Below are positions 319 to 20,339 of a stretch of 20,416 bases of DNA, piece by piece. How positions within the stretch are numbered: position 1 is the first letter of the stretch; the number at the start of each line of letters is the position of its first letter. Made by a program: the position numbers and the translations under genes. This DNA comes from an uncultured Bacteroides sp. (lineage in GTDB: Bacteria; Bacteroidota; Bacteroidia; Bacteroidales; Bacteroidaceae), in contig URCM01000053.1 of NCBI GenBank assembly GCA_900546355.1, positions 1 to 20,416 of the forward strand, in the 5' to 3' direction. Under the pieces are notes generated by a model, which saw nothing but the letters and a program-made list of their open reading frames with translations, was not told the DNA's origin and ran no database searches.

Positions 319-349
319 TTTCCTTTTTAGAAAAATATTTTCATATTTG
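319..349 (+). promoter_or_regulatory. Candidate promoter of the pilus operon
   Basis: CATATTTG at 342-349 differs at one position from the Bacteroides -7 consensus TAnnTTTG. The -33 region (around 319-322, TTTC) is a poor match. If it is used, transcription starts near 355, upstream of the ATG at 407 and downstream of the earlier in-frame ATG at 347, which favours 407 as the start. The assignment rests on one imperfect box. Confidence 0.4.
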
Positions 350-406
350 CAAAGCAATAAGATTTATTTAAGAAAAGATACTAAAAAAAGACAAAAAGAA
401 ACGACC

Positions 407-1681
407 ATGTGGAGGAGAAATTGTTGCATCATGCTGCTTTTCATGTCTGTGCTTCCTGCATTCCAGCACGTCGGGGCGCAGGAGGTGCAGGACTCGGTAC
501 GGATTTATTTCCGGCAGGGACGCTCGGAGCTGGACATGTCTGTCCGCAATAACCGGGCTGCGTTAGGGCGCATAGCCGACAGCCTGAGCACCAGCTATGC
601 CGATTCGGTCTACATCTTGCGGAAGATTCTGGTGGAAGGCGGCGCATCGCCCGAAGGCAGCATCCCGCTGAACCGGAAACTATCGGAGAAACGTGCGGAA
701 ACTTTGTTCGGGTACTTGGCGCAATATGGCGAATTGCCCGACTCGCTGACTACTTTCCGCTTTATAGGAAGAGACTGGACGGGACTGCTCCGGCTGGCAG
801 AAGCAGACGAAGACCTGCCTTACAGGGAGCAGACGCTGGATTTTCTGCGCCAGGTAGCCGAAAAAACACAATCGGGAGAACGGGCTGAAGACAATTACGT
901 AGGTAAGCTCGCCCGCCTGGCGGGCGGCAAGCCATACCGCTACATGTATCGCCAGATTTTCCCCGAGCTACGCGCCTCGCGCCTCCACCTGTGGTACCGG
1001 AAAGTGTGGAATCCGCTGAAGACGCCTGTTCCTGCACCGTTCATCACACCCCTGCCCCTTGCCATGCCCGAACGGGCAGAAGTCCCCTATACCCCCGTGC
1101 CGCCTCAAAAACCGTTCTACATGGCTGTTAAGACCAATTTATTATACGATGCCGCGCTTGTCCCCAACATAGGTGTGGAATTTTACTTGAAAGACGGCTG
1201 GAGCATCGGCGCCGGATGGATGTACGGCTGGTGGAAGAAAGACCGCATCCACTGGTATTGGCGTGCCTACGGAGGCGATGTCACGGTGCGGAAATGGCTG
1301 GGCAAGAAAGCCGAAGAAAAACCGCTTACGGGGCACCACATCGGAGTATACGGACAGGTGCTGACCTACGACTTCGAGACCGGCGGGCGCGGCTACATGG
1401 GCGGTGAGCCGGGAGGAAGCCTGTTCGACCGTGCCAACTTCGTGGGAGGCATCGAATACGGCTACGCGCTGCCCGTGGCACGGAGGCTGAACCTCGACTT
1501 TTCGATAGGCATCGGCTATATGGGTGGAAAATATCATGAATATGTACCGATGGACGATTGTTACGTATGGCAGGCCACCAAGCAACGCCACTATTTCGGC
1601 CCCACCCGGCTGGAAGTTTCGCTGGTATGGCTGCTCGGACAAGGCAACGTCAACAAGATAACGAAAGGAGGCAGAAGATGA
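407..1681 (+). CDS. DUF3575 outer-membrane protein of the pilus operon
   Basis: Encodes 424 residues. The ATG at 407 begins a good signal peptide (MWRRNCC, hydrophobic core, VGAQ at 22-25). The in-frame ATG at 347 would add 20 charged residues before it and overlaps the presumed promoter. Residues about 28-205 look like an OmpA-type alpha/beta region (VRIYFRQGRSELD, then VEGGASPEGS). A Pro-rich linker (about 207-236) follows, then a C-terminal part rich in alternating aromatic and glycine residues, starting FYMAVKTNLLYDAALVPN, which is the DUF3575 signature and probably an outer-membrane beta-barrel. DUF3575 genes commonly head fimbrillin operons in Bacteroidales. The stop codon overlaps the next ATG (ATGA), indicating translational coupling. 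A structural or anchoring role in pilus biogenesis is inferred; the biochemical function is not known. Confidence 0.85.
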   Translation: MWRRNCCIMLLFMSVLPAFQHVGAQEVQDSVRIYFRQGRSELDMSVRNNRAALGRIADSLSTSYADSVYILRKILVEGGASPEGSIPLNRKLSEKRAETLFGYLAQYGELPDSLTTFRFIGRDWTGLLRLAEADEDLPYREQTLDFLRQVAEKTQSGERAEDNYVGKLARLAGGKPYRYMYRQIFPELRASRLHLWYRKVWNPLKTPVPAPFITPLPLAMPERAEVPYTPVPPQKPFYMAVKTNLLYDAALVPNIGVEFYLKDGWSIGAGWMYGWWKKDRIHWYWRAYGGDVTVRKWLGKKAEEKPLTGHHIGVYGQVLTYDFETGGRGYMGGEPGGSLFDRANFVGGIEYGYALPVARRLNLDFSIGIGYMGGKYHEYVPMDDCYVWQATKQRHYFGPTRLEVSLVWLLGQGNVNKITKGGRR

Positions 1682-2682
1682 AAAAGTTATTCTATCTGCT
1701 GGCGGCCCTGCTTCTGTTTGCTTCGTGCGAGCACAAGGAGCTGTGCTACCAGCACCCGCACCTGAAAACCGTCCGAGTGGAGTTCGACTGGAGAGATGCG
1801 CCCGATGCATCGCCCGCCGGCATGTGCGTCTACTTCTATCCGCTGGAAGGAGGGAACGGGCAGCGTTTCGACTTTACAGGCACGGCGGGGGGAGAAGTGC
1901 AGCTGAGGGTGGGCAGGTACGTTGCCTTATGCTACAACAACGATACGGAAATCGTGGAATTCTACAACACCGACGATTTTGCCACCCATGGTGTCTACAC
2001 ACGCGAAGGCAATCCGCTGGAACCGATATACGGCAATGCCGCCAACTATGCTCCCCGGGCGGACGGGAGCGAAGAAGAACCGGTGCGGATAAGCCCTGAC
2101 ATGATGTGGGGATGCACTGCTTCCGAAGTGGAAGTGACAGACGAAGGCCTGAGCTGCAGCTGCCTGCCATCCGGCGCGGAAGATGCAGACGGAGGGACGC
2201 AGCGCGACGAATACGTCATCACGCTTTATCCGCACGAACTGGTGTGCACGTATACGTACGAGGTGCGCAACGTCAGCAACCTGAAACACATGGTGCAAAT
2301 GTGCGGCACGATATCGGGCATGGCAGGCACACTGGCATTCGCTTCGGAAGAACTGGGGACGGAGAGCGTGACGGTGCCTTTCGAGTCGGTATCCGACGGC
2401 GTGTCGACGGTGACCGGACGCTTTTACACCTTCGGCCATCATCCGGACAACCCCGACCCGCACCGGATGGTGTTTTACGTAGTGATGGACGACGGGGCAA
2501 AGTATTGCTACAAGGATACGGAGAAGCTGGACGTGACCACACAGGTGCACGAAGCACCCGATTTCCGCCATGTGCATATCATCATTGACGGACTGGACCT
2601 GCCGCAACCCATCGAGAACGGACACGGGTTTGATGTGGACGTAGACGACTGGGAAGTAGTAGAGGAAGAAATAAAGATTTAA
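1678..2682 (+). CDS. DUF5119 lipoprotein, possible pilus anchor/assembly subunit
   Basis: Encodes 334 residues starting at the ATG that overlaps the upstream stop by four bases; an AAAGGAGG stretch just upstream is unusually Shine-Dalgarno-like for this phylum. The signal peptide MKKLFYLLAALLLFASC ends at a lipobox cysteine (C17), predicting an acylated outer-membrane lipoprotein. The mature N-terminus has EHKELCYQHPH, a pattern I associate with DUF5119. The rest looks like beta-sandwich sequence (for example RVEFDWRDAP and VRNVSNLKHMVQ). In FimA/Mfa1-type (type V) pili, lipoproteins encoded next to the stalk gene (FimB, Mfa2) anchor and limit the fibre. The position in this operon suggests a comparable role, but that is inference. 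It sits 37 bases before the first fimbrillin gene. Confidence 0.8.
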   Translation: MKKLFYLLAALLLFASCEHKELCYQHPHLKTVRVEFDWRDAPDASPAGMCVYFYPLEGGNGQRFDFTGTAGGEVQLRVGRYVALCYNNDTEIVEFYNTDDFATHGVYTREGNPLEPIYGNAANYAPRADGSEEEPVRISPDMMWGCTASEVEVTDEGLSCSCLPSGAEDADGGTQRDEYVITLYPHELVCTYTYEVRNVSNLKHMVQMCGTISGMAGTLAFASEELGTESVTVPFESVSDGVSTVTGRFYTFGHHPDNPDPHRMVFYVVMDDGAKYCYKDTEKLDVTTQVHEAPDFRHVHIIIDGLDLPQPIENGHGFDVDVDDWEVVEEEIKI

Positions 2683-2719
2683 CGAAAAGCCATGTTTAAT
2701 CAATTAAATTTTTAAAAAG

Positions 2720-3958
2720 ATGAAAAAGAGTTATTTGTTAGGAGCATTGGGGCTGTTGGCAATGGCATCGTGCTCGCAAGACGAAACCATCGGCATCAAC
2801 CACGATGGCGATGAAATCACCTTCAATGTGGTGACAAACAGCGCAACGAGGGCGGCGGACGTGTACTGCAACAAGAACCTGCCCGGCGGATTCTACGTGT
2901 CGGCCATCAGCGACGGCAAGACGTACATCGACGGAGACCATGTGACCGGCTCGAACGAAAAGTGGACCAACGAAAGCGGCACCCGCTACTGGCCGGAAAC
3001 GCCGGTAGACTTTTACGCACACGTCAACGCGGGAACTTCGTATAAATGGTCGGTAGACGGTGCAGGCAAGGCGACGGCAAAGTTTGAAAACTTCGCGGTA
3101 AACGGAACGGTAGCAGACCAGGTAGACCTGCTTTACGCCGTAAAGACCGGCCAGAAAAAAGCCGACGGGACGGTGAACCTTAACTTCCGTCATGCTTTGT
3201 CGCAAATCGTGTTCCAAGCCAAAAACACCAACGCCAACCTGTACGTGGAAATAGCCGGCGTGAGCGTAGCGAATGTGGGCGGGACGAATACGTTTACATT
3301 CCCTTCGGCAAATACCGAAACCAACATTGAAGATCATGATGGAAACGCAGACGGCGTGTACGAGGACGGCGAGTTTGGCGACATCACCGACGGACTCAAT
3401 TGGGGAACCTGGGTGGCATTGACACAGGGAGAGGAACAGTACGACGTAGACTTCATCAATAAAATACCTGTTCGGGGCAACAACACCCTTGTAGCCTTGA
3501 CTACGGCAAACGAAACAGACAAGGAATACAACAGCAACGCCATGCTGCTCTTGCCTCAAACAACGACTGCATGGGATCCCGAAGCAAATCCTCTGCCTGG
3601 AGCAGAGAAAAACACCGGGTCTTATCTCCTGGTAGACTGCGCTATCTTTAATGTGGCTGGAACGGACTATGCGGAAGGCGATGATGTCTGCCTGTGGGGC
3701 GAACTGAAAGAAGGCACATGGAATACCAAAGAGCTTGCCATCCCGGTAGCGTTCGACTGGCAGCAAGGCAAGAAATACGTCTATACGCTGGTATTCGGCG
3801 AAGGCAATGGCGGGTATGACCCCGATCCCGACCCGGATCCGGATCCGGAAGACCCGGACCCCGTACTTGTGCCTATCACGTTTGAAATCACCGTTGACGA
3901 TTTTGAACTCGTTGATGGCGGAGAAATCGAATCAGGCATTCCGGGCAAAGGCGCATAA
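2720..3958 (+). CDS. Fimbrillin-family lipoprotein, probable pilus stalk subunit
   Basis: Encodes 412 residues. The signal peptide has a lipobox cysteine at C18 (LLAMASC) followed by SQDE. An ATR-A motif at residues 42-45 (Arg44) lies where type V pilins are cut by an Arg-specific protease before polymerisation. The following region has typical Mfa-like/fimbrillin features: GTRYWPETPVDFYAHVN, then VDLLYAVKTGQ, then LNFRHALSQIVFQAKN. A Lys/Tyr-rich strand (GKKYVYTLVFGEG) leads to an Asp-Pro repeat (residues 367-381) and a final beta-strand-like segment ITFEITVDDFELVDGGE. In this family the C-terminal strands serve in donor-strand assembly. Stalk assignment rests on size and gene order. Confidence 0.85.
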   Translation: MKKSYLLGALGLLAMASCSQDETIGINHDGDEITFNVVTNSATRAADVYCNKNLPGGFYVSAISDGKTYIDGDHVTGSNEKWTNESGTRYWPETPVDFYAHVNAGTSYKWSVDGAGKATAKFENFAVNGTVADQVDLLYAVKTGQKKADGTVNLNFRHALSQIVFQAKNTNANLYVEIAGVSVANVGGTNTFTFPSANTETNIEDHDGNADGVYEDGEFGDITDGLNWGTWVALTQGEEQYDVDFINKIPVRGNNTLVALTTANETDKEYNSNAMLLLPQTTTAWDPEANPLPGAEKNTGSYLLVDCAIFNVAGTDYAEGDDVCLWGELKEGTWNTKELAIPVAFDWQQGKKYVYTLVFGEGNGGYDPDPDPDPDPEDPDPVLVPITFEITVDDFELVDGGEIESGIPGKGA

Positions 3959-3986
3959 TCCATTCAGGAACTGAACAAATTTTATA

Positions 3987-4018
3987 GACTGGGTGGGGTT
4001 GAATGTCCCTGCCCAGTC
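3987..4018 (+). promoter_or_regulatory. Strong hairpin between the two fimbrillin genes
   Basis: GACTGGG (3987-3993) pairs with CCCAGTC (4012-4018). The stem extends inward through TGGGG/CCCTG (two G-U pairs) to 12 bp, with loop TTGAATGT. No U-tract follows, so it is not a classical terminator. It lies 28 bases after the stalk-type gene and about 90 before the next start. It could stabilise the upstream mRNA end or reduce readthrough, giving more stalk than tip protein; this role is inferred. Confidence 0.6.
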
Positions 4019-4108
4019 ACTGGACAAATATACAAATGAAGAAAAGCCGTGGTTATCCCGTGTCAACCGGAATTATCAACGGGCTATAGATTTTTACGGA
4101 GGAACAGA

Positions 4109-6856
4109 ATGATGAATACAAAAGACCTGTTACAGAAAACGGGGATGCTGGCGGTTCTGGCACTTGCACTGGCATCCTGCTCGGAAGACGAACTTATCAA
4201 CCGCAAGGGAGCGGCGAGCAATGCCATCAGCTTCGGCATCGCCAGCCCGACCCACAGCGCAGACAGCCTGCCGAGCCGTAGCCCGCAAGCGGAAGAACCG
4301 CCCTTGCTCTTGCTGGGCGAAGGGAAACGGGATACGCTCTATCTTCACGCTTCGATAACGGACAACATTGCCACTCCTCCGGACCAAGAGCCCGCGACAC
4401 GGGGCATACCGGTGGATGAAACCAATTTCAAGGAGGTATACAGGAGTTTCGGCATAACGGCTTATGCAGAAGGCGGCGCATTGTTTATGGACGAAGAAAT
4501 AAGCCAAGAATCGGGAGGTATATGGTCGCCCGACGAAACCCGCTACTGGCCCGCCGATAAAGACCTTACCCTCGATTTCTATGCACAGGCTCCGTACGGC
4601 AATGCCCACGTGACGGATGTATCGGCAGGGGAGGGAAAAATCAGTTTTTCTTATACCGTACCCGACGGAACAGGCAACACCGACGCCGACGCCGAAGCCC
4701 AGCCCGACATCCTGTTCGCCTATGCGGCATGCAGCAAAGCGGAATCGAAAGGCGGTACCGTATCGCTTGAGTTCGGGCACGCCCTTGCCGGCGTGAAGTT
4801 TGTAGCCAGCAACGTGACCGGAAGCACGATAAAAACCATTACCCTGAAAGGCTTGCAGGGCGAAGGCACATGTACATACGATGCCGGGACAGGGACGTTC
4901 GACTGGCAAACCAGCGGGGATGAGCGCGTTTTTTCCCAAACCTTCGACGTTGAGCTTTCGGGACAGCAGGCGGGCAAGCAGCCCATTACCGACCAACGTC
5001 CCGAAACCACCTTTATGATGATTCCGCAAACGCTGGAGGGCGTAACGGTGGAAGTCACGCTCGTAGAAACGGCAAGTAGAGAACCGTTTACGCTGACCGG
5101 TTCGTTGGCAAAGACCGTGGCATGGGAAGCCGGCAAGATTTACACCTATGCGATTTCTACCGAATCCATCAACTGGGAATACGTGTTCGAAGTGACTCCC
5201 TCCATCACGCTTCCCCTCGGCGAAACGCAGGCACAGTACACCGTGACGAGCTACCGCCAGCGCAAGGGAGACCCCAGCATCAGGCAAGCCGTGGCATGGA
5301 ATGCGGAGTATCCAAGCTTTTCGGAAACCGACCCAGAGAAGGGGGAGGTAGAAACGACATTGAAAGATATACTTTTGGACTTCACTTATCAGGATGAGAA
5401 TCCTTCGGAAACCAAATCGTACCCCATTGAAGTGACGACTACCACCCTGAGAACCACCTGGGACGGAGACCTGACATTGAAAGGGAATACTCAGCGGGGA
5501 AGCGCGGACAGTCCTTACGACCTTTCCACCCACGATGAGAACGGAGTCACCATTGACCAGACCACGGCGAATTGTTATGTAGTAAGCGCGGCAGGGACGT
5601 ACCAGCTGCCTTTGGTATATGGAAATGCCATAAAAAACGGAAGTGAGAACAGTGCCGCTTACCAGGGCGGGAAGTTTAAAGATTACCTGAACCGCACGAT
5701 AAGCAGCTCCCGCATCACCGATGCCGACAACGCCGTACTGGTATGGAGCGACGGGTTCTTCATGTTCAAAGACATCCACCTGGACGCGGGTAAGCAAAAC
5801 CTGGTGTTCACCATCGACTCCAACTATATGCAACAGGCCAACGCCGTACTGGCGGTACGCGACGCCAGCAACCGAATTATGTGGAGCTGGCACATCTGGG
5901 TGACGGAACGCCCCGTTTATACGGTGAGGCACACGTTGCAGGATTTATTCGTCAGCTCTAATACGTACGAGCTGATGCAATGCAACCTGGGCTGGGTAGA
6001 CGGAAAAAAGGTTTATTACAACCAGCGTGACCTGACCTTCCCTTTCACCCAAGTCGGTTCGGGCAAGACCGCCGAGCTGATAGTAAGGCAGGAAGGCGAA
6101 ACATTCGACTATAAAGATGTAGGCTCCACCTACTACCAATGGGGGCGTAAAGACCCGCTGGTGGCTTTAAAGAATTGGGATTCGTACCGATATGAAGACT
6201 ACCGGTTGCACGAAACAGGCGATCCGGATTACGTGTACCGGTATGAGACAGGGCCTACGACCATCGGAGACGCCATACAGCATCCCAACGTGTTTTATAC
6301 CCGCGGGACAACCGGCGGTGCCGACTGGAACGGCGACCATACCCCTACGCTGTGGAACGCCGATGCCGATGGCGGTACGTTAGAGTCTACCACTTCCGTA
6401 AAAACCATATACGACCCTTCGCCCAGAGGCTTTAAAGTGCCTATGCCGCGTGCCTTTGCCATTTTTGTAAACGGCAATACAGGAGACGGGAATAACGGTA
6501 CGACAGGTGTGCTTAACGGGTATGTGTTTGGAGATAACGTACACAATAAATACCGGGTTTACCCTCAAGCCAACAAGCAAGGATACGAAATCCCCTTGAC
6601 CGCTACCGGACAACGCGCGGACATCTCAGGATTGCCAGTTTACGAGGAATACGGTACTAAAAAAGCTGAGATAGGAGGATTATGGTCACTGTATGGCGTG
6701 TATTACTGGACGTGCGTGCCCATTAAAACCCAAAACACATCCGCCTATACGCTTGTCATACGTAAAGACCATCCTTCGGGGCTGGAAGTTTATTCATACG
6801 GATTTGTGGGCACGAAGACCATGGCACGCCCCGTACGCCCTATCGCCGACCGATAA
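4109..6856 (+). CDS. Large fimbrillin-family lipoprotein, probable tip or accessory adhesin
   Basis: Encodes 915 residues from ATG 4109 (an ATG-ATG pair, preceded by ACGGAGGAAC); the frame is open to 4049 but the extra residues precede the signal peptide. Lipobox cysteine C24 (LALASC). An ATR-G motif at residues 96-99 (Arg98) parallels the cleavage-like site of the upstream fimbrillin. Residues about 100-375 form a fimbrillin-like module (WSPDETRYWPADKDLTLDFY, LEFGHALAGVKFVASN). A beta-rich middle follows with TANCYVVSAAGTYQLPLVYG near 490-510 and MWSWHIWVTE near 590-600. The C-terminal third has YYQWGRKDP, YDPSPRGFKVP and a closing ARPVRPI, resembling the major paralogous/FISUMP-type domain often seen on pilus tips. 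It is more than twice the length of the stalk-type protein. The tip role is inferred from architecture. Confidence 0.8.
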   Translation: MMNTKDLLQKTGMLAVLALALASCSEDELINRKGAASNAISFGIASPTHSADSLPSRSPQAEEPPLLLLGEGKRDTLYLHASITDNIATPPDQEPATRGIPVDETNFKEVYRSFGITAYAEGGALFMDEEISQESGGIWSPDETRYWPADKDLTLDFYAQAPYGNAHVTDVSAGEGKISFSYTVPDGTGNTDADAEAQPDILFAYAACSKAESKGGTVSLEFGHALAGVKFVASNVTGSTIKTITLKGLQGEGTCTYDAGTGTFDWQTSGDERVFSQTFDVELSGQQAGKQPITDQRPETTFMMIPQTLEGVTVEVTLVETASREPFTLTGSLAKTVAWEAGKIYTYAISTESINWEYVFEVTPSITLPLGETQAQYTVTSYRQRKGDPSIRQAVAWNAEYPSFSETDPEKGEVETTLKDILLDFTYQDENPSETKSYPIEVTTTTLRTTWDGDLTLKGNTQRGSADSPYDLSTHDENGVTIDQTTANCYVVSAAGTYQLPLVYGNAIKNGSENSAAYQGGKFKDYLNRTISSSRITDADNAVLVWSDGFFMFKDIHLDAGKQNLVFTIDSNYMQQANAVLAVRDASNRIMWSWHIWVTERPVYTVRHTLQDLFVSSNTYELMQCNLGWVDGKKVYYNQRDLTFPFTQVGSGKTAELIVRQEGETFDYKDVGSTYYQWGRKDPLVALKNWDSYRYEDYRLHETGDPDYVYRYETGPTTIGDAIQHPNVFYTRGTTGGADWNGDHTPTLWNADADGGTLESTTSVKTIYDPSPRGFKVPMPRAFAIFVNGNTGDGNNGTTGVLNGYVFGDNVHNKYRVYPQANKQGYEIPLTATGQRADISGLPVYEEYGTKKAEIGGLWSLYGVYYWTCVPIKTQNTSAYTLVIRKDHPSGLEVYSYGFVGTKTMARPVRPIADR

Positions 6857-11041: not shown

Positions 11042-11116
11042 AAAACGAAGAATGAAGAATGAAGAATTTCCATGCGGGCGAAGCGATTCTTCATTCATCA
11101 TTCTTCATTCTTCATT
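11034..11116. repeat. GAAGAATGAA inverted repeat between convergent genes
   Basis: Several GAAGAATGAA-like units (11034-11068) are mirrored by ATTCTTCATTC units (11086-11116), with a GC-rich centre CATGCGGGCGAAGCG. The left arm contains the ispG stop codon and the right arm reaches the stop codon of the convergent GH43 gene. The stem could end transcription from both sides, though without long clean U-tracts. Confidence 0.75.
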
Positions 11117-12105
11117 TAATAATTGACTACAGGCCATCCGTCAGCTGTCCATGTCATTTCGCGTATAAACAATTTCGGGGCTCCATCTTCCGCAATCGAA
11201 TAAGCATGGCATAAGAAATAATCTTTTCCGTCGATGTGATAAGCTGCGTTATGTCCGATACCGGCATACGCTTCGTTTCCTTCTATCACCAGCGTTCCGC
11301 CTCCTTTTGCCATCGGTTTCCCTTCTTTGTCGGCATAGGGTCCGACAACCGACTTCGAGCGTCCTACCACGACTTTATAATTACTATCTTTCCCCCGGCA
11401 ACAATAATCAAATGAAACGAAAAGATAGTAATAGTCTCCGTGCTTCATGATAAACGGAGCTTCTACAGCTCCATCACCCGGATCTTTATCATCCAGCCCG
11501 AACGAACGCGGACGGCTGCAAAGCGAATGCCACTCTTCAGGCTGTGCCACCTGCATCAGGTCATCAGTAAGCTTCACCATTTTAATACCATCCCAAAATG
11601 AGCCGAAGCTCATCCATGGCGTACCGTCGTCGTCGATGATGATATTAGGGTCGATAGCATTCCACATATCCCGGTTGGGTACCGACTGGATTATTTTTCC
11701 GTGGTCGGTCCACTTAAAATCCGGGTCGGCAGGGTCGAGGGTGGGATTCGTCGCGTGTCCGATAACCGAGGTGTTTTTTGCAAAAGCCGAACAAGAATAA
11801 AACAGATGGTACTGCCCGTTATGGTAAATGATATCGGGTGCCCATGTATGTCCCTTATACCCCTTTACAGCTTCCACCGCCCATTGAGGAGCTTCGGCAA
11901 ACACGGGTTTCTCAAACTTCCATGTCTTCAAATCCTTAGAAGACATGACAGACACTCCTTCGCCCGTAGCGAACAAATAATAAGTATCACCTTGCTTCGC
12001 CATTACCGGGTCGTGCACCAACGGACTGTCGGTAGTCTGTGGCTGTTGGGCGAAGCCCCCCCATCCTATACCTAAGAACATGGTCAATAAAACAACTTTC
12101 TTCAT
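11116..12105 (-). CDS. Secreted GH43 glycosidase, probable endo-1,5-alpha-L-arabinanase
   Basis: Encodes 329 residues with a signal peptide (MKKVVLLTMF...GGFAQQ, cleavage near residue 19-20). A single five-bladed GH43 propeller follows. The three catalytic acids are visible: D32 in VHDPVM (base), D152 in NAIDPNIIID (pKa modulator) and E215 in VEAPFI (acid). H285 in GIGHNA corresponds to the central metal-associated histidine of arabinanases, and SFGSFWDGIKMV resembles endo-arabinanase sequences. It should cut alpha-1,5-arabinan backbones at the surface or in the periplasm; exact linkage is inferred. The gene follows the HTCS gene on the same strand but has its own operator-promoter region at 12162-12216, suggesting independent induction. 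Confidence 0.85.
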   Translation of the reverse strand: MKKVVLLTMFLGIGWGGFAQQPQTTDSPLVHDPVMAKQGDTYYLFATGEGVSVMSSKDLKTWKFEKPVFAEAPQWAVEAVKGYKGHTWAPDIIYHNGQYHLFYSCSAFAKNTSVIGHATNPTLDPADPDFKWTDHGKIIQSVPNRDMWNAIDPNIIIDDDGTPWMSFGSFWDGIKMVKLTDDLMQVAQPEEWHSLCSRPRSFGLDDKDPGDGAVEAPFIMKHGDYYYLFVSFDYCCRGKDSNYKVVVGRSKSVVGPYADKEGKPMAKGGGTLVIEGNEAYAGIGHNAAYHIDGKDYFLCHAYSIAEDGAPKLFIREMTWTADGWPVVNY

Positions 12106-12161: not shown

Positions 12162-12216
12162 CAAAGTTGCAAAAACAAAAACAAAACAAGGTGGACAAAC
12201 GTATCTTTCAGGTGGA
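12162..12216 (-). promoter_or_regulatory. Paired TCCACC operator and promoter of the left GH43 gene
   Basis: Read on the minus strand, TCCACCTGAAAGA begins at 12216 and TCCACCTTG begins at 12195, a 21-bp period. A -7-like box CAACTTTG (one mismatch to TAnnTTTG) starts at 12169, 26 bp after the second box. There is no good -33 element, which fits activator dependence. The same arrangement precedes the other GH43 gene. It lies just after the HTCS stop codon. Confidence 0.75.
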
Positions 12217-12230
12217 GAGTCTATCCCCAA

Positions 12231-15200
12231 TCACCCCTCCATCAGGCTACTCGGCGTAACATTGAAATGTTTCGTGAAACAGCGGGTAAAATATTTCGGG
12301 TCATTAAAACCTACGGCATAAGCTATTTCTGAAATATTCATCGTACGGTTCACTTTATTTTTCAACAACAGTTCACGCGCCAGGTTCAGACGGTAATTCC
12401 GTATGAATTGTCCTGCAGACTGGCCGGTCAGGCACTGCATCTTCTTATTAAGCAGACTCTTGCTGATTCCCATCTCATTGATGAAATCCCCTACCTCAAA
12501 GTCCGGATTCTTATAATTTTCTTTCACTACCCGCATGGCTCTTTCCAGAAACTTCTTATCACCCGAATTCTCTTCCGGCAATTCCAACGAATCGGTATTC
12601 ATATCAATGGAAAAACGTTGCTGGAAACGGCGGCGGTTCTCTAAAATGCTGGCAATGCGAGCCAGCAACATATTCTCATCGAAAGGCTTCAGCAGATAAG
12701 CATCTACTCCCATCTTATAACTGTCCAGCCGGGCTTCGTCCGAAGTCTTGGCGGTAAGCATCAGGAAAGGTATGTGGGAAATGGAAAAATCGCTCCGCAC
12801 CCGACGCAACAGCTCCACCCCATCCATCACGGGCATCATCAGGTCGCTGATAATAAAATCTACATTGTAAGTTTTCAGCGTCCGAAGCGCTTCCTCTCCG
12901 TCGGCAGCCTCCAATACATTATAATACTCACGCAAGATAGAGCGGGTATAATCACGCATGTCCTTGTTGTCTTCTACCACCAGCATGGTCATCTTGCTGT
13001 TACGCAACAGTTCCGGGCGGATTTCTTCGGTCACCTCCTGAACGTTCTCCTTGTCCGCGCCCCGCACCACAGGCAGCAGGGCATAGAAAGTAGAGCCACC
13101 CGACGCATTGTTTTTCGCCCCAATCTTTCCCGACAGCATATTTACCAGCTTACGGCAAAGATACAACCCGATACCTGTCCCACTCTGTCCGCTAACTGAT
13201 GCCTGGTCTTGGTTATCCGCCTGGTAAAAACGGTTGAAAATGCGGTCGATGTCTTCTTCGGGAATCCCCTTACCCGTATCGTGGACCGACAGGAAAAGCT
13301 TCTCGCCGTCATCCGCTTTCAGCACAGCTATATAAACCGATACGCTCCCACCCTTCGGCGTAAACTTCAGGGCATTGCTGATGAGATTGGTCAAGAGCTT
13401 GCGCAAGGCATCTTCGGCATACATCATAAACGGATTCTGCAAACGGACATAACAACGGAAATCAATGTCGCGAGCCTGAGAATAATCGGCAAACGAGGGA
13501 ATGAATTCATCCAGGAAACGGCGCAGATTGCCGTAATTAGGGATAATCCTCATGCGCCCTTCTTCCACTTTACGGAAGTCCATCAATTGGTTAATCAACG
13601 ACAACAAGTATTTCGAATTCCGGTCTACCAACCGAAGCTGCTCGATAACCTGCGGATTGTAACTTAGCTTAAGCGCCCGTTCTATCGGACCGACTATCAG
13701 CGTAAGAGGCGTACGGAACTCGTGCGTAATGTTGGTAAAGAAAGCCAGTTTGTCGACAGTCAGTTCTTCCACTTTGCGCGACATTTCCAGTATCTTGTTC
13801 TTTTGGCTGGTAATCTTTTCGTTCGACTCCTTCAACAACCTGTTCTGGCGCGAAAGTTCTTCCTTCTGACCAGACAAAAGCTGTTTCTGTTCTTCCAACT
13901 TCCGTGTGCGTTCTTCTACCATGCTATGCAACAATTTCTGCTGGCGTTTCATGGCATGGAAACGCCAATAAATGGCAGCTATCAGCACCAGCACCACCAA
14001 TAAATCGAACCAGACGGTCTTATAAAAATAAGGTGTAACCTCGATAGCCAATACTTGGGCGGAAGAGTTGAAATTTTTCCCATCCGAAGCATAGCGCAAC
14101 TCGAACACATATTTTCCCGGACGCAAATTGGTATACGACACGGTATGCTGATTGGCAGGCATCGTAATCCACTTGTCATCGAAACCTTTCAACCGATACG
14201 AATAACATGCCAACGCGGAAGGATTATAATCCAACGAAGCGAAACTAATCGTCAACCGTTTATCGCGTTCGTGAATACACACCTGATTATCTGAGAACGG
14301 AAGAGGATAGTCGAAACAAGACACGCCGGTAAATGCCAGCGGATAAGTTTTGTCTACTTCGGCACGAGGCACGATACGGATTTCCGAAAAACCATTCGTG
14401 CTGCCCACATACACGTCACCGTCTTTCGACCCTCCGATAGCATTCCAATAAAACTGATTGCTGAGCAGGCCGTCGTGTTTCGTATAATTCTGGAACGAGC
14501 CATCTTTCGGGTTGAAGCACGACAAACCGTTGTTTGTGGTCAGCCACACATAACCGTCTTTATCCTCCCACACACCGATTACACTGTTGTTTATCAAACC
14601 ATCCTTAGTCCGATATGCCTTGAAATGATAACCTTCGTCTGTTTTCGTCACCCGATAAAAGCCGTTTCCGTTTGTTGCGACCCATACGCAACCATCCTTA
14701 CCAGACGAGATAGAAGTAATTCGTTCGGGTACCTTTTCAGCCGGATTATCCAACTTATGGTCGTATAACGCATAATCCATTGAATCATTCTTATATGTAT
14801 GCAAGTCTACCCGGTACAATCCTGCCGTAGTCCCCATCCACAAAATCCCGTCACCGGTTATACAACCTCCCAACGAGCCATATACACTCCCACGACGCTT
14901 GCCTCGGAACGGGTCGAACACCTTTCCTGTTGCCGGATCGTACGCCTGTATGTCATCATTCGTACCTATCCACAGCAAATCGTTCAGCCGGTCGTAAAGC
15001 AGCACACTGACAAACGCTTGGGACAGTCCGGGTTTCTTTGCGGACAAAATAGGATGAAACGCTTTATCGGGCGAATTGCTTCCGTTCATCCATCCAAGCC
15101 CGCCACCCCATGTACCGACATAGATGCGGCCTTTCCCGTCAGAAGCCAACGCACTTACCGAATTATGGCTCAAACGCGCAGGAGCGGCAGTGGTGTAATG

Positions 15201-16403
15201 TTCAAAGTCTTGCTTGCCTGCCCGACGGAGATTCAACCCTTCCTCGACGGTTCCTACCCACAGCGCGCCATCCGGCTCTTCCAAGACGGCATTCACCAAA
15301 TTGCCCGAAAGGCTGCCAGGGTCTTCCGTCGAATGCAGATGGTTTTGTATCTGCAACCGAGAGATGAACATCTTATTCAATCCTCCCACTTCCGTCCCTA
15401 TCCAAAGCATATCTTCATCGGCAAGCAGGCAATTGATGAAATTGCAATTCAATCCGCCACCTCCGCTTGACTCCGACTGCTGGATGCGTATAAAATTATC
15501 GGTTACAGCATTGTATAAATTCAATCCTTTCAAGGTACCTACCACCAACGTCCCGTCCGGAGCCAGATTAATGTCGGTAATATAATTCTGCGACAAGGAA
15601 AACAAATCGCGCTCATCGGTAAAATAAGCCTTCAAAGTACGCGTACTGACATTGTACCGATACAATCCGTTGTTAGTACCAATCCATAAATCATTTTGCC
15701 AAGGGAAAAGACACTGCATCACGCAACCCTCAGGGATGACCGTCCCGGAAAAAACCGGCACAGGCTTCTGCGGCACAACCACATTTTCCTTGATAACCGA
15801 CAACGTACCCAGATAATCAAACCAAATATAGCCATCGGTTTCACAAAATGCCAGGCTGCGGTTATACAAATACAAATCGCATATCCGGACAATCTCCTTT
15901 ACTTTACCGTCTCCTAAAAAAGACACCTTGTAAAGTGCCCCGTCCGCACCAATCCACATATTGCCTGCCGAAGAACAATAAACAAAAGCTACCGAACGGA
16001 ATATACCGGAAGTGAATTTATCCCCCAACCGCTGCAAGCCGACCGGCTTGAGGCTTTGCACGTCAAGCAAGTCGATGCCCTGGGCACCCGCTATCCAGAT
16101 GCGCCCAAAGCGGTCTTCACACATCTTCACCACCACATTGTTCTTCAACCGGACATCTCCTGTAAATGCATTAAAAGTCATGAAATCGTAACCATCATAA
16201 CGCGTCACACCATTTCCGCCCGTAGATACCCATAAGAACCCACGGCTGTCTTTCATCAGGTCTTCCACATAATTTTCGGGCAAACCATCGTCCATCGTCA
16301 AGTGTGTAAACAAATAATTTTCTCCTCTATCGTGCGAAACTGCAGGAAAAACTCCTAAAATGATATAGGCCAACAAAAGCCATACCCAACGTTGTGTCTC
16401 CAT
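12231..16403 (-). CDS. Hybrid two-component system sensor-regulator (HTCS)
   Basis: Encodes 1390 residues, a typical HTCS size. It senses oligosaccharide in the periplasm and activates nearby carbohydrate genes. Order: signal or membrane-anchor segment (about 1-24); two-propeller sensor of Reg_prop repeats (about 28-680; LWIGTNNGLYRY, LWVGTVEEGL, VWVATNGNGFYR); Y_Y_Y domain (about 719-790; YSYRLKGFDDKW); transmembrane helix (about 799-815); coiled coil (about 820-885); HisKA with H894 in ITHEFRTPL; HATPase with N-box NLISNALKF, GKGIPEE and GTGIGL; receiver with E1144/D1145, phospho-acceptor D1187 (ISDLMMPVMDG) and K1239; AraC-type double HTH (about 1285-1388; ISEIAYAVGFNDPKYFTRCF). All key residues are present. 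The flanking GH43 genes are the likely targets; an arabinan oligosaccharide as signal is inference. Confidence 0.95.
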   Translation of the reverse strand: METQRWVWLLLAYIILGVFPAVSHDRGENYLFTHLTMDDGLPENYVEDLMKDSRGFLWVSTGGNGVTRYDGYDFMTFNAFTGDVRLKNNVVVKMCEDRFGRIWIAGAQGIDLLDVQSLKPVGLQRLGDKFTSGIFRSVAFVYCSSAGNMWIGADGALYKVSFLGDGKVKEIVRICDLYLYNRSLAFCETDGYIWFDYLGTLSVIKENVVVPQKPVPVFSGTVIPEGCVMQCLFPWQNDLWIGTNNGLYRYNVSTRTLKAYFTDERDLFSLSQNYITDINLAPDGTLVVGTLKGLNLYNAVTDNFIRIQQSESSGGGGLNCNFINCLLADEDMLWIGTEVGGLNKMFISRLQIQNHLHSTEDPGSLSGNLVNAVLEEPDGALWVGTVEEGLNLRRAGKQDFEHYTTAAPARLSHNSVSALASDGKGRIYVGTWGGGLGWMNGSNSPDKAFHPILSAKKPGLSQAFVSVLLYDRLNDLLWIGTNDDIQAYDPATGKVFDPFRGKRRGSVYGSLGGCITGDGILWMGTTAGLYRVDLHTYKNDSMDYALYDHKLDNPAEKVPERITSISSGKDGCVWVATNGNGFYRVTKTDEGYHFKAYRTKDGLINNSVIGVWEDKDGYVWLTTNNGLSCFNPKDGSFQNYTKHDGLLSNQFYWNAIGGSKDGDVYVGSTNGFSEIRIVPRAEVDKTYPLAFTGVSCFDYPLPFSDNQVCIHERDKRLTISFASLDYNPSALACYSYRLKGFDDKWITMPANQHTVSYTNLRPGKYVFELRYASDGKNFNSSAQVLAIEVTPYFYKTVWFDLLVVLVLIAAIYWRFHAMKRQQKLLHSMVEERTRKLEEQKQLLSGQKEELSRQNRLLKESNEKITSQKNKILEMSRKVEELTVDKLAFFTNITHEFRTPLTLIVGPIERALKLSYNPQVIEQLRLVDRNSKYLLSLINQLMDFRKVEEGRMRIIPNYGNLRRFLDEFIPSFADYSQARDIDFRCYVRLQNPFMMYAEDALRKLLTNLISNALKFTPKGGSVSVYIAVLKADDGEKLFLSVHDTGKGIPEEDIDRIFNRFYQADNQDQASVSGQSGTGIGLYLCRKLVNMLSGKIGAKNNASGGSTFYALLPVVRGADKENVQEVTEEIRPELLRNSKMTMLVVEDNKDMRDYTRSILREYYNVLEAADGEEALRTLKTYNVDFIISDLMMPVMDGVELLRRVRSDFSISHIPFLMLTAKTSDEARLDSYKMGVDAYLLKPFDENMLLARIASILENRRRFQQRFSIDMNTDSLELPEENSGDKKFLERAMRVVKENYKNPDFEVGDFINEMGISKSLLNKKMQCLTGQSAGQFIRNYRLNLARELLLKNKVNRTMNISEIAYAVGFNDPKYFTRCFTKHFNVTPSSLMEG

Positions 16404-16448: not shown

Positions 16449-16480
16449 CAAATTTACAGATTTCCACTAACGGAGACAAA
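16449..16480 (-). promoter_or_regulatory. Promoter of the HTCS gene
   Basis: On the minus strand, TTTG (16480-16477), exactly 20 bases, then TAAATTTG (16456-16449): a full consensus Bacteroides promoter. It predicts a leader of about 40 bases. No TCCACC box accompanies it on this strand, so steady expression rather than strong autoregulation is expected. Confidence 0.8.
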
Positions 16481-16515: not shown

Positions 16516-16530
16516 TCCACCTGAAAAAGA
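16516..16530 (+). promoter_or_regulatory. Additional TCCACC half-site in the divergent gap
   Basis: TCCACCTGAAAAAGA is nearly identical to the first box of the left GH43 operator. A degenerate TCCTCC follows at 16538, 22 bases from its start. It lies 83 bp upstream of the main pair, in the 285-base gap between the divergent HTCS and GH43 genes. A remote binding site or a decayed operator are both possible. Confidence 0.5.
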
Positions 16531-16598
16531 CTAAAAATCCTCCTCCTGCTTCCAGCCCCACAAATCTTGCATCAATTTATTCCAACATTCGCCAAACG

Positions 16599-16653
16599 TC
16601 CACCCGAAAAGAATAAATATCCACCCGAAGACCAAAAGACATTTCTATCTTTG
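16599..16653 (+). promoter_or_regulatory. Paired TCCACCCGAA operator and promoter of the right GH43 gene
   Basis: TCCACCCGAAAAGA begins at 16599 and TCCACCCGAAGACC at 16620, a 21-bp period (two helical turns). TATCTTTG, a perfect -7 box, begins at 16646, 26 bp after the second box. The -33 region is occupied by the second box and lacks TTTG, as expected for a promoter that needs an activator. Box spacing and distance to -7 equal those before the left GH43 gene. Confidence 0.8.
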
Positions 16654-16688: not shown

Positions 16689-17675
16689 ATGAGAAGCAGA
16701 TATCCACGAATCCATGCAGCACTTTTAACAGGTATGCTGTGCCTTGGTAGCCTTTCAAGCGTTGCCGCCCCCAAAGACACGACATTCGTAGCCTCGGGAA
16801 ACCCGATTGTAAGCTATAAATATTTAGGCGATCCTGCCGCATTGGTTCATGACGGAACCTTATATATTTATGCGGGACACGACGAATGCCCGCCCCCCGG
16901 ACAATATTACCTGATGAATGAATGGTGCATCCTGTCGACCACCGACATGAAAACATTCACCGAACACGCTTATACCCTGAAAGCGAAAGATTTCAAGTGG
17001 GCAAAAGGCGAAGCGTGGGCAAGCCAGGTCATCGAGCGCAACGGAAAGTTCTATTGGTATGTGACTGTAGAACATGCCACTATCCCCGGCAAGTCTATCG
17101 GTGTAGCCGTAGGCGACTCGCCTCTTGGCCCGTTTAAAGACGCACGTGGTTCGGCACTCATCACCAATGATATGACTACCGAATACACCTCCATCCGCTG
17201 GGACGACATCGATCCCACCGTCTACATAGACGATGACGGACAAGCCTACCTCTTTTGGGGCAATACGCAATGCTATTACGCAAAGCTGAAAGAAAACATG
17301 ATTGAATTAGACGGTCCGATTATGCCTGTCCAATTGCCTCGCTTCACCGAAGCACCTTGGATACATAAACATAACGGCTGGTATTACCTGTCGTTCGCGT
17401 CCGAATTCCCCGAAAAGATTTGTTACGCCATGAGCCGCAACATCAACGGTCCGTGGGAGTACAAAGGAATCTTAAACGAAATAGCGGGTAACTCGAATAC
17501 CAACCATCAGGCTATCATCGACTTTAAGGGACAATCGTATTTCATCTATCACAACGGAAGTATCAACCCCGACGGTTGCGGTTTCCGCCGCGCAGTATGC
17601 ATCGACCGGCTTTTCTATAACGAAGACGGTACTATCAAGCGCATTCAGATGACTACCGAGGGGGTGACCCAATAA
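16689..17675 (+). CDS. Secreted GH43 glycosidase (arabinofuranosidase/xylosidase type)
   Basis: Encodes 328 residues with a signal peptide (hydrophobic segment to VAA near residue 26). One GH43 propeller: base D48 in YLGDPAALVHDG, modulator D175 in DDIDPTVYIDDDGQAYLFWG, acid E221 in RFTEAPWIHKHNG, and H273 in NTNHQAII near the active-site centre. The NEWCILSTTDMKTF segment is typical of exo-acting arabinofuranosidase/xylosidase relatives. Substrate cannot be set by sequence alone; with an endo-arabinanase-like GH43 beside the same regulator, trimming of arabinan or its oligosaccharides is the best guess. It is divergent from the HTCS gene, is preceded by the paired operator, and ends before a good terminator. 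It has no CBM or lipobox. Confidence 0.85.
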   Translation: MRSRYPRIHAALLTGMLCLGSLSSVAAPKDTTFVASGNPIVSYKYLGDPAALVHDGTLYIYAGHDECPPPGQYYLMNEWCILSTTDMKTFTEHAYTLKAKDFKWAKGEAWASQVIERNGKFYWYVTVEHATIPGKSIGVAVGDSPLGPFKDARGSALITNDMTTEYTSIRWDDIDPTVYIDDDGQAYLFWGNTQCYYAKLKENMIELDGPIMPVQLPRFTEAPWIHKHNGWYYLSFASEFPEKICYAMSRNINGPWEYKGILNEIAGNSNTNHQAIIDFKGQSYFIYHNGSINPDGCGFRRAVCIDRLFYNEDGTIKRIQMTTEGVTQ

Positions 17676-20262: not shown

Positions 20263-20339
20263 TCTTCAGTAGCTCAGTCGGTTAGAGCATCTGACTGTTA
20301 ATCAGAGGGTCGCTGGTTCAAGTCCAGCCTGAAGAGCCA
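20263..20339 (+). tRNA. tRNA-Asn (GTT), with encoded CCA
   Basis: Acceptor stem TCTTCAG pairs with CTGAAGA. D-arm AGCTCAGTCGGTTAGAGC; anticodon stem TCTGA/TCAGA around loop CTGTTAA with anticodon GTT at 20297-20299. T-arm GCTGG-TTCAAGT-CCAGC, discriminator G20336 and genomically encoded CCA at 20337-20339. Confidence 0.97.

Follow-up and report, generated by a model that had tools for sequence, protein, structure and literature searches.

The window, i.e. the complete stretch of 20,416 nucleotides of an uncultured Bacteroides sp. considered here, harbors two GH43 genes that are transcribed away from each other, with an HTCS gene between them and a candidate operator before each (Table 1). HTCSs are described in excerpts of PMC3878776 as membrane-spanning sensors with an AraC-type HTH. 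The HTCS of the window shows an HEFR H-box, the receiver motif DLMMP, and a SHIP motif, which parts of PMC11253607 link to inhibition of DNA binding. Between positions 11116 and 17675, no SusC/SusD pair adjoins the HTCS, in contrast to several of its relatives. Elsewhere in the window, a DUF3575 protein and, after it, two fimbrillin-like (Mfa_like_1) proteins are encoded (347-6856), and a tRNA-Asn (20263-20339) is succeeded from ~20363 by what appears by eye to be a second copy, truncated where the window ends.

Bacteroides promoters consist of a -7 box, TAnnTTTG, and a -33 element, TTTG. Before the HTCS gene, such an arrangement is found with TAAATTTG, the only one of 13 TAnnTTTG sequences in the window that is preceded by TTTG at that distance. 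A general rule that every HTCS gene of this clade has a -33/-7 promoter holds for the window and is not claimed; it was dropped, as only 8 of 34 compared rows, the window included, have a -7-like box with TTG or TTTG located 19-21 bp ahead of it. Upstream of the GH43 gene on the forward strand, TCCACCCGAA begins at 16599 and again at 16620. The earlier note had proposed here an operator of two TCCACC boxes 21 bp apart, with TATCTTTG at 16646, 26 bp from the second box, and these positions are exact in the sequence. The -7 box of a canonical promoter is thus present at 16646; its -33 element is absent, with no TTG 18-22 bp upstream and neither TTG nor TTTG ~19-21 bp before the -7 box, and the second TCCACC box stands in that place. 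The tally of 0 of 66 composites with TTG at -33 was discarded as evidence, because this outcome is largely forced by a pattern in which TCCACC fills the position.

An identical geometry had been described for the opposite strand, before the other GH43 gene. The two spacings of 21 and 26 bp are indeed equal, with TCCACC starting at 12216 and 12195 on the minus strand, but the -7 box CAACTTTG at 12169-12162 is imperfect, its one mismatch falling on the first base of TAnnTTTG. These boxes read TCCACCTGAA and TCCACCTTGT, so that TCCACC is the sole part common to all four. The distance between both operators, put at about 4.4 kb across the HTCS gene, was measured as 4.38 kb. A box pair that likewise lacks a -7 box as the degenerate pair of Table 1 (16516-16543) occurs in locus L196 at 271 (-), with a spacing of 21 bp and 144 bp before the HTCS start; the two are at most possibly counterparts.

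Table 1. Features of the window around the two candidate operators
Feature	Position	Strand	Remarks
Candidate HTCS operator 1: TCCACC direct repeat, 21 bp apart	16599..16625	+	precedes GH43 gene at 16689
-7 box TATCTTTG	16646..16653	+	perfect TAnnTTTG; 26 bp from box 2 start
Candidate HTCS operator 2: TCCACC direct repeat, 21 bp apart	12190..12216	-	precedes GH43 gene starting at 12105
Imperfect -7 box CAACTTTG	12162..12169	-	26 bp from box 2 start; CAGCTTTG in L196
Possible degenerate second site (TCCACC followed by TCCTCC) at a spacing of 22 bp, without -7 box	16516..16543	+	weak evidence
HTCS, 1390 aa, presumed binder	12231..16403	-	Reg_prop, Y_Y_Y, membrane helix, HisKA, HATPase_c, receiver, HTH_18
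Presumed HTCS gene promoter TTTG-N20-TAAATTTG	16449..16480	-	before the HTCS gene
GH43	16689..17675	+	best-scoring solved relative Gly43N beta-xylosidase/alpha-L-arabinofuranosidase (3qed)
GH43	11116..12105	-	best-scoring solved relative arabinan endo-1,5-alpha-L-arabinosidase (1gyd)

TCCACC is a frequent hexamer, and its repetition might be fortuitous. The window contains 20 copies against 8.95 expected, 9 to 61 pairs at any spacing of 11-31 bp are present per genome in 19 relatives, and box pairs without a -7 box are frequent in these genomes. Since the hexamer is enriched by itself, the distinctive feature is the specific geometry. Among 22 loci with close HTCS relatives, 19 exact pairs occur at spacing 21 and at most one at each of 93 other spacings (7 to 100), while the remaining 58 loci yield no exact pair at spacing 21; the 22 loci were partly picked after the initial site search, a choice of which the test on 201 genomes described below is free. 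A variant with boxes 16 bp apart gave two matches, one of them overlapping a true site, versus five in its own reversed control. When up to two mismatches are permitted in the 19 genomes, 35 and 30 matches stand against 8 and 7 in the reversed control, a background owing to which weak matches by themselves mean little.

The composite TCCACC-N15-TCCACC-N20/21-TAnnTTTG was searched in 201 genomes of the Bacteroidaceae, the family of G019. There are 32 exact composites, distributed over 25 genomes, and the reversed pattern is absent from all 201. Orthologues of the HTCS were sought by scoring three candidates per genome and were found, among the matches listed, in 18 of the 201 genomes (E = 0, with 44-80% identity in the best row and nearly the whole length covered, apart from a match in G151 that begins at residue 224; the G207 protein carries one internal stop). 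Among these matches, the composite accompanies the orthologue in 16 of 18 genomes, versus 9 of 183 others (Fisher p 1.5e-15), and the association persists, again among the matches listed, if the four orthologue genomes that had contributed to defining the pattern (G008, G009, G012, G019) are omitted (12/14 vs 9/183, p 4.8e-12). Both orthologue genomes that lack an exact site, G087 and G156, exhibit one-mismatch sites beside the HTCS; this relaxed search was confined to these two and G180, leaving aside 173 further genomes that lack one.

The earlier note had named a scatter of unrelated hits across genomes as an outcome that would speak against an HTCS operator. Of the 32 exact sites, 24 are situated within ~5 kb of the regulator gene or near a relative of it that lacks the kinase (20 and 4, respectively). 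Three more lie elsewhere in genomes with the HTCS, namely before a GH43 gene on another contig (G184), a TonB-receptor gene (G198), and a DUF4861 gene (G165). The last five comprise three inside an ORF (G077, G090, G195) and two before TonB-receptor genes (G027, G076). Four of the nine composite genomes devoid of an orthologue (G024, G138, G166, G205) possess the kinase-less relative. The frequency of TCCACC and the three composites within ORFs are what speaks for a chance repeat of a common hexamer, an explanation whose probability is negligible and which is ruled out by the spacing peak at 21 only and by the tie of the exact composite to the regulator, with a reversed control of zero, so that the earlier judgement of chance as unlikely holds.

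The composites of G027 and G076 (L211 3794 (-), L212 2374 (+)) are exact, carry GCGAATAG or GCGGATAG before box 2, and occur without this HTCS. They are perhaps the operator of a related HTCS, and their presence indicates that other regulators may read similar boxes.

Conservation was furthermore assessed at 80 loci (L001-L080) gathered by HTCS protein similarity alone. A matrix built from 61 exact composites, drawn partly from these same loci, was applied with no more than one mismatch tolerated in the -7 box; it detects a site in 20 of 25 regulator-clade loci versus 0 of 55 other loci. Clade membership denotes here the tree clade plus L013; of the 55 others, the tree contains 10, and low identity is the sole criterion for the remaining 45, and six proteins that are short, partial or truncated, L013 included, stand outside the tree. 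No local site was recovered by the matrix scan at L002, L014, L018, L019, and L027 of the clade, and a 13.4-bit match at L020, located inside the HTCS gene and with a poor -7 box, was excluded from the count. The site is thus conserved with orthologous HTCSs and absent at the other HTCS loci, and both computational checks, scatter and conservation, uphold its reading as a putative HTCS operator. The genomes of the 19 relatives contain 17 exact composites, of which 16 are known HTCS-locus sites and the 17th (G017:C130) is found on another contig, before a gene resembling SusC-type genes. In a set of 119 genomes of one genus, which partly overlaps the other sets, 34 have an exact composite, and 20 of these show one site per strand, 4.4-7.9 kb apart and pointing outward like those of the window, with the intervening gene checked in part.

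A further comparison is offered by the relative G184, whose HTCS is 80% identical to that of the window and identical over 100 residues of the HTH domain (100%). When the divergent region of the window is aligned with each of two G184 contig ends, the best alignment falls at the operator (16593-16626), with scores of 38 and 39, which none of 500 shuffles reaches; the first of these contig-end matches corresponds to the -7-less pair 144 bp before the G184 HTCS start. The minus-strand site belongs to an extended conserved segment that also covers the end of the HTCS gene, CAACTTTG being found in the window versus CAGCTTTG in G184.

A consensus was derived from 64 sites with at most two mismatches, unique sequence, and a downstream ATG-initiated ORF of at least 150 aa. 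They stem from hand-picked loci, i.e. those with orthologous HTCSs, those with kinase-less relatives, those of additional sites from these genomes, and L115, L121, L136, and L167, minus L014. It reads wTTrTCCACCt...rTtCrTTTGTCCACCt, where rTtCr is weakly kept; departures from TCCACC affect box 2 in 10 and box 1 in 18 of the 64 sites. The yGAA extension that had been counted as part of the operator is not conserved in this set, a G occupying its second place in just 5/64 sites. The spacing to the -7 box proves less rigid than the fixed 26 bp initially supposed: a perfect box follows at 26 bp in 34/64 sites and at 27 bp in 20/64, and a box with one mismatch at 26 bp in 9/64 and at 28 bp in 1/64. 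In L001 and L121, box 1 is preceded at 19 bp by a third TCCACC box.

Genes downstream of the sites that were scanned for protein families encode GH43 enzymes (L195, L198, L210), a GH51-type arabinofuranosidase (L205), TonB-receptor Plug proteins (L200, L202), lectin-like Laminin_G_3 proteins (L197, L210), a DUF4861 protein (L209), and one protein without a family (L201). In the window itself, the sites stand before glycan genes beside the HTCS gene. In B. mediterraneensis (L002), the HTCS locus lacks a site, and two one-mismatch sites are placed elsewhere in the chromosome, one (L136) before a GH43 gene whose product is 82.5% identical to a GH43 of the window, the other (L121) ahead of a gene whose product shares 60% identity with an arabinofuranosidase confirmed by Pfam. 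Retention of the site at a target gene far from the HTCS locus speaks for regulation in trans.

At least five of the 201 Bacteroidaceae genomes (G024, G138, G166, G205, G180; L202-L206) encode a kinase-less relative of the HTCS, 983-997 aa long and sharing 34-37% identity with the HTCS in the sensor and 49-58% in the HTH. A domain scan of the five proteins retrieved Reg_prop, Y_Y_Y, and HTH_18, and HisKA, HATPase_c, and receiver are absent; all four that were checked have a signal-like segment plus one further membrane-helix-like segment. The operator is exact in four of these genomes and bears one mismatch in G180, the boxes and the distances of 21 and 26 bp being kept near the gene. It precedes TonB-receptor genes in L202 (by Pfam), L203, and L204 (both by resemblance), a GH51-type gene in L205 (by Pfam), and a gene for a 622 aa protein in L206. 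In a tree of sensor plus HTH, the kinase-less proteins are placed inside the HTCS clade (supports 0.99, 0.47, 0.89, 0.985), as they are in a sensor tree (supports 0.93, 0.97), and an HTH-only tree leaves their placement unsettled. These sequences suggest that the kinase part was lost in the relatives. In all three trees, L205 branches separately from the remaining four, though weakly supported, and the loss perhaps happened more than once. There is about an even chance, judging from the domains and trees, that the operator represents a lasting module serving two signalling designs, where the phosphorelay was excised and sensing and the DNA target were kept, turning an HTCS into a transmembrane one-component AraC-type activator. 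Narrow literature searches gave, among the papers listed, no account of kinase-less HTCS relatives, and the portions of PMC10766802 and PMC11784079 at hand describe no such relatives. A figure legend in PMC3404733 applies the term "one-component system" to some B. thetaiotaomicron regulators.

Direct repeats are a known form of predicted HTCS operators. For 16 HTCSs of B. thetaiotaomicron, motifs were predicted that are, in the excerpts of Ravcheev 2013 (PMC3878776), all direct repeats averaging 21 bp; hence the operator type is known and the window site is a new member. BT0366, the arabinan HTCS, is among the 16, its regulon being named HTCS_Ara-1 (same excerpts). The window sites share with this regulon two direct boxes at ~21 bp and genes linked to an AraC-type HTCS, a likeness that, given these excerpts, concerns repeat type and spacing. 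BT0366 senses arabinan and has targets flanking its own gene. The HTCS of the window likewise belongs to an arabinan locus, where it is flanked by GH43 genes with operators, and one GH43 is closest to arabinanases. Differences comprise the missing SusC/D pair beside the window HTCS and the fixed 26/27 bp to the -7 box, a feature seen here and absent from the HTCS_Ara-1 description in those excerpts of PMC3878776. The kind of site is therefore already known, and the window provides a new example, probably of the HTCS_Ara-1 group. SusR-like operators resemble it as a direct repeat of a membrane-linked sensor-regulator, but have 67 or 77 bp between box centres and are read by another DNA-binding domain (excerpts of PMC3878776). 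A full-text literature search for TCCACC provided no relevant paper among the matches listed, and PMC12125979 was set aside, as it concerns a Vibrio xylose regulator.

The site is very probably, as far as comparative sequence evidence can tell, an operator of the HTCS encoded between the two copies, which would activate the arabinan genes on either side. The sequence, the geometry, the conservation, the link to the regulator clade, and the kinds of target genes are established directly; ligand, phosphorylation, binding, and direction of effect are what we infer for the window HTCS. Another sugar-use regulator of the AraR or Crp type might read the boxes, which would then merely travel with the arabinan locus. 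AraR and BT4338 do act on arabinan/arabinose genes of B. thetaiotaomicron too, but the presence of the site tracks this HTCS clade and is not seen at the other loci searched, the 21 bp tandem repeat matches the published HTCS pattern, and the operator also accompanies kinase-less relatives that retain the HTH domain, so that a reader of this type is improbable.

In class II activator sites of the AraC family, tandem monomer sites are arranged such that the proximal one overlies the upstream promoter element. The window sites share this layout and differ in that the promoter is of the Bacteroidota type with a TAnnTTTG -7 box and the regulator spans the membrane. Under the preferred reading, an arabinan fragment would bind the periplasmic propeller of the HTCS, whose kinase domain would then phosphorylate the receiver. 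The HTH_18 domains of an HTCS dimer may act as two tandem monomers, each on one wTTrTCCACCt box, and boxes 21 bp, i.e. two helix turns, apart would both face the same side of the DNA. The proximal box would cover the place of the missing -33 element, for which the activator would substitute by recruiting RNA polymerase to the -7 box in a class II-like activation. Its position at -33 fits an activator that replaces this contact.

Work on BT0366 bears on the direction of the effect. Parts of PMC5061871 and PMC3404733 report that BT0366 binds oligoarabinan, that arabinan fully induces BT0364 and BT0367 only if BT0366 is present, that a BT0366 fragment gel-shifted the BT0365 and BT0366-BT0367 regions, and that a BT1754/BT0366 chimera was detected by ChIP at the BT0366 locus and at some down-going loci. 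The HTCS might bind the window sites as a repressor, and both the ChIP signal at loci going down when the chimera is active and the placement of the proximal box on the core promoter are compatible with it. Repression nevertheless appears very improbable, given that the BT0366 locus is not fully induced without BT0366 and that a box in place of the -33 element suits an activator.

With activation by the HTCS as the favored interpretation, a precise operator with a fixed core-promoter spacing would be at hand for one HTCS clade, which would render regulons predictable, including far targets. The natural kinase-less relatives on the same operator may offer a direct route to what the kinase and receiver contribute to sensing and activation.
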